From: Lachnospira sp. UBA5912
GTDB taxonomy: Bacteria > Bacillota > Clostridia > Lachnospirales > Lachnospiraceae
Length of the DNA: 15,550 nucleotides
Assembly (NCBI GenBank): GCA_002435585.1
Contig: DJDY01000041.1
Span: 524-16,073 of the forward strand
Direction of reading: 5' to 3'
Every line of letters begins with the position of its first letter. Positions within the stretch are counted from its first letter, which is position 1. The notes under the pieces are model-generated. The model saw only the letters and a list, made by a program, of their open reading frames with translations. It searched no databases and was not told the origin of the DNA. Positions 794 through 2,278 of the stretch are shown here, piece after piece. Made by a program: the position numbers and the translations under genes.

Positions 794-822
794 TTGACAT
801 ATTTGTTAAAAACAGTTAATAT
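794..822 (+). promoter_or_regulatory. Sigma-A type promoter for the riboswitch/antiporter transcript
   Basis: TTGACA (794-799), a 17-bp spacer and TAATAT (817-822) give a near-consensus vegetative promoter, with a start expected around 829. This puts the riboswitch aptamer about 110 nt into the transcript. The -10 overlaps an inverted repeat AATATCA/TGATATT (818-824 and 835-841), which could be an operator. A weaker second promoter may lie between 860 and 895. Confidence 0.65.
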
Positions 823-841: not shown

Positions 842-939
842 GATATAGTCAGATTGAAAGCATGACATATATCAGGAATAACATATATTTAAACATCAGG
901 TTTTAATATTTAAATATTACATTAGAATATTGATTTATA

Positions 940-1002
940 CGGGGAATGAAGTTCTCCCCTGGTATATACCAGAACCGCTTATTATGGCTGATGACTTCTA
1001 CG
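940..1002 (+). promoter_or_regulatory. Fluoride riboswitch (crcB motif) aptamer
   Basis: The segment follows the crcB/fluoride riboswitch plan. Hairpin one is GGGGA (941-945) paired with TCCCC (955-959), closing a loop with the conserved AUG and UUC. The joining element AACCGC is at 973-978. The conserved 3' segment GCTGATGACTTCTAC is at 987-1001. Loop bases GAAGT (948-952) can pair with ACTTC (994-998), which forms the pseudoknot typical of this class. An extra palindrome, CTGGTATATACCAG (959-972), sits between hairpin one and the AACCGC element and looks like a lineage-specific insertion. The downstream gene is a PF00999 antiporter, a known fluoride-regulon gene type. The identification rests on remembered consensus, not on a covariance search. 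Confidence 0.85.
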
Positions 1003-1035
1003 ATTTTTAATATCGTGGATGTTGTCAGCTTTTTT
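987..1035 (+). terminator. Riboswitch expression-platform terminator
   Basis: The 18-base arm at 987-1004 pairs with 1012-1029 around a 7-base loop, with only one mismatch and a few G-U pairs, followed by six T (1030-1035). The left arm is the same sequence that forms the 3' half of the fluoride aptamer and its pseudoknot, so the two folds exclude each other. Ligand binding should prevent the terminator, giving an ON switch for the antiporter. Confidence 0.85.
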
Positions 1036-1081
1036 GATGTCTGTATAAAAGGTAAGAAACATCCACAAAAGGAGGAAAAAT

Positions 1082-2278
1082 ATGTTAACATCACTATCAC
1101 TTATTTTTTTAGCAGGACTGGCTATGGCAGCTATATGCCAGAAACTTAAGCTTCCAAGGATTATAGGAATGCTTGTGACTGGTATTGTGTTAGGACCATA
1201 TGTGCTTAATCTTCTGGATCCATCTATTCTTTTAATATCTGCGGATTTAAGAAAGATGGCACTTATCATCATACTTATTAAGGCTGGACTTTCACTTGAT
1301 ATTGGTGATCTTAAGAAAGCTGGAAGACCAGCAGTGCTGTTATGCTTTTTACCAGCATCATTTGAAATAACAGGTTATATTATATGTGCGCCATATGTAT
1401 TAGGAATAAGCAGGGTAGATGCTGCCGTTATGGGGGCAGTTTTAGGAGCCGTGTCACCAGCCGTTGTAGTGCCAAGAATGGTAAATCTTATTGAAAGAAG
1501 ATATGGAACAAGGAAAGCCATACCACAGATGATTCTTGCAGGTGCTTCATGTGATGACATATTTGTAATAGTACTATTCACTACATTTTTAAGTATGGCA
1601 CAGGGTGGCAGTGCGCATGTTATGGATTTCGTAAATGTTCCTATATCAATAATTCTTGGTGTTTTACTTGGAGCCGTTATGGGGTATGGCTTATACATGT
1701 TTTTTGAAACATCGTATGCACACAAACATTGCGTGAGAAATAGTATGAAGGTGATTATTGTACTTGGTTTTTCATTTCTGCTTGTAGCAATAGAAGGCTG
1801 GCTAGAAGGAAAAGTGTCAGTGTCAGGCCTTTTAGCGGTTGTAAGTATGGCGTGTGTACTTAAGCTTAAAAGTACAGAGTTCGTGTCAAAGAGACTTTCA
1901 GAGAAGTTTGGTAAGCTTTGGCTGGCAGCAGAGGTTATTCTTTTCGTACTTGTTGGTGCAGCGGTAGATATAAGATATACACTTAGTGCTGGCATAGCGG
2001 CTGTCGTTATGATAATAATTGCACTTATATTCAGGACAATGGGCGTTCTTATATGTCTTATAAAGACACCACTTAGTGCAAAGGAAAGATTGTTCTGTGT
2101 TATAGCATATCTGCCTAAAGCAACAGTTCAGGCGGCTATTGGTTCGGTACCACTGGCAGCAGGTCTTTCATGTGGCAATATCATACTGTCAGTTGCAGTA
2201 CTTGCTATAATTATAACGGCACCTCTTGGGGCACTTGGAATAGACAGCACATATAAGAAGCTGTTAGAAAAAGAATAA
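1082..2278 (+). CDS. Cation/proton antiporter (PF00999, KefB/NhaP-like), fluoride-responsive
   Basis: This 398-residue polytopic membrane protein is probably a monovalent cation/H+ exchanger of the PF00999 superfamily, with about 12-13 hydrophobic helices. The N-terminal KLKLPRIIGMLVTGIVLGP (about residues 22-40) is the typical second-helix motif. KAGLSLD (about 67-73) resembles the RAGL.LD motif. The ion-binding double aspartate is present as D158-D159 within AGASCDDIF. The start has an excellent AAGGAGG (1069-1075) six bases upstream. The gene is alone, behind its own promoter and a fluoride riboswitch. Antiporters of this kind are known members of fluoride regulons beside crcB and CLC-F. 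The inferred job is fluoride tolerance, either by moving fluoride or by restoring ion and pH balance. Substrate cannot be told from sequence. No regulatory TrkA domain follows, so it is shorter than KefB or KefC. Confidence 0.88.
   Translation: MLTSLSLIFLAGLAMAAICQKLKLPRIIGMLVTGIVLGPYVLNLLDPSILLISADLRKMALIIILIKAGLSLDIGDLKKAGRPAVLLCFLPASFEITGYIICAPYVLGISRVDAAVMGAVLGAVSPAVVVPRMVNLIERRYGTRKAIPQMILAGASCDDIFVIVLFTTFLSMAQGGSAHVMDFVNVPISIILGVLLGAVMGYGLYMFFETSYAHKHCVRNSMKVIIVLGFSFLLVAIEGWLEGKVSVSGLLAVVSMACVLKLKSTEFVSKRLSEKFGKLWLAAEVILFVLVGAAVDIRYTLSAGIAAVVMIIIALIFRTMGVLICLIKTPLSAKERLFCVIAYLPKATVQAAIGSVPLAAGLSCGNIILSVAVLAIIITAPLGALGIDSTYKKLLEKE

Follow-up and report, generated by a model that had tools for sequence, protein, structure and literature searches.

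Within the 15,550-nucleotide stretch of DNA from Lachnospira sp. UBA5912 that we analysed (the window), an element that looks, from its sequence, like a working fluoride-sensing RNA switch lies before a sodium/proton antiporter gene. The element is probably an ON fluoride riboswitch with a terminator, and the gene that it precedes probably encodes an NHA2-like exchanger acting as a fluoride-tolerance protein in place of Fluc (crcB) or CLC-F. The placement of a fluoride riboswitch before a Na+/H+ antiporter is already in print: according to the accessible part of a 2024 review, such antiporters are the gene class most commonly associated with fluoride riboswitches after the exporters (PMC11139923, citing Baker 2012). 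The coordinates of the features are collected in Table 1.

Table 1. Features of the riboswitch-antiporter locus (window coordinates).
Feature	Position	Strand	Basis
Candidate promoter TTGACA-17-TAATAT (10/12)	794-822	+	Consensus match alone
Second candidate promoter	862-889	+	Consensus match alone
Fluoride riboswitch aptamer RF01734	933-1007	+	cmscan, 45.5 bits, cut-off 34
P1 hairpin, 942-945 paired with 955-958, loop AUGAAGUUC	942-958	+	Rfam alignment
Pseudoknot 5' strand GAAGU	948-952	+	Reverse complement of 994-998
Inserted hairpin CUGGU-AUAU-ACCAG	959-972	+	Folds as 5 bp; related riboswitches
Conserved AACCGC	973-978	+	Rfam alignment
P2, weak	977-988	+	Rfam alignment
Pseudoknot 3' strand ACUUC	994-998	+	Reverse complement of 948-952
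Intrinsic terminator, arms 986-1004 and 1012-1030, T run 1030-1035	986-1035	+	Folding
Probable ribosome-binding site GGAGG	1071-1075	+	Sequence
Antiporter, 398 aa, PF00999, NHA2/SLC9B-like	1082-2278	+	ORF; Pfam; NHA2 E 4e-38

The match to the Rfam fluoride riboswitch model covered the model end to end (positions 1-64 of 64, E 5.3e-10) and exceeded the gathering score. No other Rfam family did so in the whole window, and no second RF01734 match was found elsewhere in the host genome assembly, which is 78.7% complete. The crcB-type layout and the 5-bp pseudoknot claimed in the initial annotation are both borne out. AACCGC is followed by GCTGATGACTTCTAC at 987-1001, and the pseudoknot strand in the P1 loop (GAAGT in the DNA) is the exact reverse complement of the 3' strand (ACTTC). 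In the Rfam alignment P2 consists of G977-C988, C978-G987 and U979.G986, followed by a U.U mismatch. Folded alone, the aptamer had a z-score of -1.0, and 29 of 200 shuffles were equally good, with a program that leaves pseudoknots unscored. The window shares with the Rfam crcB motif the full-length match, the pseudoknot, AACCGC and GCUGAUGAC...CUAC. It differs from the motif in an extra hairpin between P1 and AACCGC, in a P1 loop that is one base longer (954) and in the pseudoknot, GAAGU/ACUUC as against GGAGU/ACUCC in the Rfam consensus line.

The terminator at 986-1030 with its T run is the expression platform and competes with the aptamer. As the initial annotation had described, the stem of 18 bp ends in six T and reuses the 3' half of the aptamer. 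It folds as 10 + 8 bp with one mismatch, and its left arm shares bases with P2 and the pseudoknot. Folding of the region 933-1040 gave a z-score of -5.5, and none of 200 shuffles was as good. When growing transcripts were folded, the terminator displaced P2 once a length of about 1029 was reached. Three sites came out of a simple terminator scan, each of them on the minus strand; 986-1035 was not among them, and our guess is that the mismatch is probably the reason. Terminators overlapping the crcB motif RNA have been described (PMC2864571, in part). In the Bacillus cereus crcB riboswitch, the accessible text reports, fluoride binding disrupts the intrinsic terminator (PMC8752731). The two switches have the same kind of platform, but the B. 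cereus riboswitch controls crcB, whereas the one in the window precedes an antiporter gene. By its spacing, A991-U999 in the window would match the A40-U48 link of B. cereus. We infer that the window RNA binds fluoride and acts by antitermination. Without fluoride, the RNA would fold into the terminator and transcription would end around 1035, ahead of the antiporter gene. When Mg2+ and fluoride are present, the terminator's left arm would be tied up in the pseudoknot and P2, and RNA polymerase would continue into the gene (an ON switch).

The extra hairpin, CTGGTATATACCAG, has a stem of 5 bp and an AUAU loop; the segment 958-972 folds at -4.7 kcal/mol with a z-score of -2.6. We compared 102 riboswitches, namely that of the window, those of 71 orthologue loci and the 30 best family matches (28 before antiporters and 2 before CLC-F); some genomes may be present in both sets. 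It turned out that 101 of the 102 carry an insert of at least 12 bases between P1 and AACCGC, and only one (L085) lacks it. A script parsed 99 of them, all with the insert, and the inserts of L093 and L112 were judged by eye. Thus, the palindrome that the initial annotation called unusual is the rule at this place among related riboswitches, and its arms covary. Among 65 distinct inserts, standard pairs, counted from the outside inward, were found in 31, 41, 64 and 64 of 65, and the fifth pair in 27 of 31. At the outermost position the pairing is weak in most cases. The second pair varies between U-A, C-G, A-U and G-C, and its commonest form is U.U (20/65). Compared with the form in relatives, the window insert has a longer stem and an AUAU loop.

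In the window 959-972 is also a perfect 14-bp DNA palindrome, as would be expected of a DNA operator for a regulator in place of an RNA hairpin. This reading is very improbable and we rejected it: changes in the arms are compensated among relatives (the first four positions sum to 200 standard pairs, against 172 ± 4 in shuffled inserts, with a maximum of 186 over 2000 shuffles), and a GNRA loop, which is an RNA signature, occurs in 27 of 34 distinct 12-nt inserts. The RNA hairpin would sit at the base of P1 as a peripheral stem and would mark a clostridial subtype of the aptamer. By eye, the same insert was seen before CLC-F genes (L125, L129-L132, L134), before crcB (L124) and before a universal stress protein gene (L217); the idea that the insert is specific to antiporters was rejected on these grounds. 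The extra hairpin characterises a lineage-specific subtype of the riboswitch and does not single out antiporters. Among the phylum-level and new loci, 35 of 120 were unclassified as to gene (19 + 16 at phylum level). Match length was rejected as a proxy for the insert, as some long phylum-level matches have a long P2 instead. A limited literature search, whose reach ended short of figures and of the 2012 papers, returned no published description of the hairpin. For structural work, it offers a naturally occurring variation on an aptamer of very small size.

The product of the gene was assigned to PF00999 from the outset, and this stands: the match scores 138.4 bits against a cut-off of 26.2 and covers residues 9-385. 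PF00999 was the only Pfam family found in the product, which belongs to neither the Fluc (crcB) nor the CLC-F family. Among solved structures, the closest to it by sequence is human-type NHA2/SLC9B2 (7b4l), and the next are chains of the NapA-like NA(+)/H(+) ANTIPORTER 1. Residues E95, D158, D159, R318 and K346 align with human NHA2 E215, D278, D279, R432 and K460 (numbering counted by hand along the alignment) and are kept in 125, 125, 123, 124 and 124 of 125 homologues, respectively. Both the DD motif and the Glu-Arg pair of the NHA2/SLC9B type are present. According to the accessible part of a structural source, two Asp of NHA2 bind the cation (bison numbering is one lower), the Glu-Arg salt bridge is NHA2-specific and the exchange is electroneutral (PMC8850199). 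The antiporter of the window thus has the site residues of NHA2, among them the Glu specific to NHA2 and the Arg that pairs with it. It differs in being bacterial, in lying behind a fluoride riboswitch and in its size (398 aa against 537, the match starting at NHA2 residue 142). Judging by these residues, its chemistry is likely electroneutral cation/proton exchange, which is likelier than direct fluoride transport because the catalytic residues of NHA2 are kept.

Two neighbours were also observed in the window. Upstream of the riboswitch, positions 349-738 contain a DUF454 (YbaN-like) gene. At 2357-2425, a perfect TTGACA-17-TATAAT is combined with a 19-bp inverted repeat (2383-2425) before MarR and MATE genes; from its sequence, the arrangement resembles an autoregulated operator.

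To see how widely the switch accompanies the gene, we took the best 80 of 235 relatives of the antiporter from a scan of species genomes (72-85% identity). They span Lachnospiraceae, Oscillospiraceae, Erysipelotrichaceae, Peptoniphilaceae, a Negativicoccus and others. RF01734 scored over its cut-off upstream in 71 of these 80 loci (18/20, 18/20, 19/20 and 16/20) and was missing over the cut-off in nine (L005, L006, L031, L043, L046, L072, L073, L077 and L082). At L043 the contig begins 33 bases before the antiporter gene, L031 and L072 retain the 3' half of the riboswitch with the terminator, and L006 retains an apparent right arm of the terminator. Since no orthologues are closer than L005 and L006, the linkage is lost at short range. 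In 397 genomes of the same family, 57 of 70 riboswitches over the cut-off lie less than 600 nt before an antiporter gene (median 75 nt), and they come from 56 of the 68 riboswitch-bearing genomes. The other 13 riboswitches precede CLC-F-like genes in seven cases (G282, G209, G102, G394, G214, G271, G321), crcB in one (G091) and shortened antiporters in two (G008, G325). Three others are that of G131, a second site of G209 and that of G046, which is 1982 nt ahead of the antiporter. Of the 89 family genomes with the antiporter, 32 lack a riboswitch that reaches the cut-off, and in 20 upstream regions from these 32 genomes there was no RF01734 match even at E 0.1. A FastTree phylogeny of 127 antiporters required at least 19 changes between linked and unlinked states, against 26.5 in shuffles.

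Several single loci are described here in their own right. Tandem fluoride riboswitches precede a single antiporter at L136 (G164, 245-440); the first has a terminator, and the ribosome-binding site adjoins the end of the second. At L064 (2895-2983) and L066 (2904-2988) the fluoride riboswitch is separated from the antiporter by a GA-cis RNA (RF02987). In a genome of the same genus (G008, L123) the riboswitch is kept, and the antiporter ORF of 123 aa has N- and C-terminal-like parts with the middle missing. At L126 (G131) the fluoride riboswitch and its terminator are followed, about 340 bases on, by a long ORF for an sCache/MCP chemoreceptor, which may have its own promoter. After the insert-free fluoride riboswitches of L240, L244, L247 and L252 there is a membrane-protein-like ORF of 382-390 aa, which, on reading alone, looks like a different antiporter class.

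The initial annotation had proposed that no crcB is needed beside this antiporter, and the genome contents fit this. Neither crcB nor a CLC-F-like protein was matched in the host genome assembly, where, at 78.7% completeness, absence is unproven. The single CLC of the host is split over places on one contig (C16). It was considered as a CLC-F and rejected, with about 30-33% identity to riboswitch-linked CLC-F among the matches listed. There is no crcB in two genomes of the same genus, each with 99% completeness; one of them (G336) has the riboswitch and the antiporter and contains no CLC more than 36% like CLC-F.

The same proposal fits the near-exclusion of crcB and antiporter that we saw in the 397 family genomes, which represent 334 genera. 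The antiporter was called at E 1e-60 or better (89 genomes), crcB over its Pfam cut-off (83), a CLC-F-like protein at 47% identity or more (21) and an ordinary CLC at 39% or less (119), the two CLC limits being placed after the gap between them was visible. Antiporter and crcB occurred together in one genome where 18.6 were expected (p 1.7e-9), antiporter and CLC-F in none (4.7 expected, p 0.006), and crcB and CLC-F in one (G317; 4.4 expected, p 0.09), with p values that treat related genomes as independent. The only genome with antiporter and crcB (G365) is 81% complete, and among 319 genomes of good quality this overlap was zero against 14.7 expected. Since the antiporter rarely shares a genome with either exporter, this suggests that it does the job of the established fluoride exporters.

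The exclusion might instead be a by-product of ancestry and habitat, if branches inherited either crcB or the antiporter and the two never met. The counts do treat related genomes as independent and take no account of habitat, and 206 of the 397 genomes have neither the antiporter nor crcB nor CLC-F. We consider this explanation rather unlikely, given that the sample is spread across 334 genera and that ordinary CLC proteins follow no such pattern (27 genomes with the antiporter against 26.7 expected; 24 with crcB against 24.9). Moreover, in four genera the two proteins are divided between species, one with crcB and one with the antiporter: g3 (G002, G334), g15 (G015, G340), g43 (G043, G359, where the antiporter is a fragment) and g44 (G360, G044). 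A literature search that was weak, with figures and the 2012 papers out of reach, yielded no published description of the exclusion pattern. It likewise yielded no account of antiporters replacing fluoride exporters, with Baker 2012 and Stockbridge 2012 outside its scope.

HF enters the cell and dissociates in its more alkaline interior; F- does not cross the membrane, and the pH gradient keeps it trapped. Three modes of action are conceivable for an exchanger here: (a) repairing the pH, (b) lowering the gradient and with it the trapping, or (c) moving fluoride. Repair of the pH predicts that the antiporter keeps company with exporters, which is not seen, and the other two predict replacement.

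If the riboswitch is real and the antiporter merely restores the pH after acidification by HF, fluoride export would be left to other proteins. This is possible, though we would sooner doubt it than accept it. It is the role that the accessible text of the review assigns to riboswitch-linked antiporters, which are placed under pH homeostasis, and it agrees with the conserved DD motif and E-R pair of a cation/proton exchanger. In Clostridioides difficile one fluoride riboswitch precedes both a CLC gene and an NhaP-type antiporter gene (CD0656-7; PMC11477304, in part), so exporter and antiporter can coexist. That operon resembles the locus of the window in joining a fluoride riboswitch to an antiporter gene, but its first gene is of the CLC type and its antiporter carries an NhaP-type annotation, whereas in the window the antiporter follows the switch directly. 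However, a helper should often accompany an exporter, and crcB is present in 1 and CLC-F in 0 of the 89 antiporter genomes.

That the NHA2-like antiporter itself exports fluoride (or HF), as a third family of fluoride exporters, is improbable. The near-exclusion with both known exporters, the direct control by the riboswitch and the swaps with crcB within four genera would agree with it, but the residues for cation/proton exchange are conserved, and no change toward an anion site was noticed in a survey short of a systematic search. We infer that the antiporter is a fluoride-tolerance gene which more likely alters the pH gradient that traps fluoride than carries fluoride itself; the conserved cation residues would favour gradient lowering over direct transport. 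Against this reading stand the orthologues and the family antiporter genomes without a riboswitch over the cut-off, the repeated changes of linkage, the genomes lacking all three proteins, the neglect of relatedness and habitat in the exclusion counts and the operon of C. difficile; moreover, a conserved cation site leaves the exit of fluoride unexplained.

The 2024 review notes that a bacterium typically has one or the other of two fluoride exporters (PMC11139923). Replacement of Fluc and CLC-F by riboswitch-controlled NHA2-like antiporters in many clostridia, as a third detoxification route through fluoride transport or gradient collapse, can be proposed tentatively, and we stop short of regarding it as probable. 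If the antiporter truly replaces the exporters, many clostridia rely on a different defence against fluoride, and the question can be put to the test.
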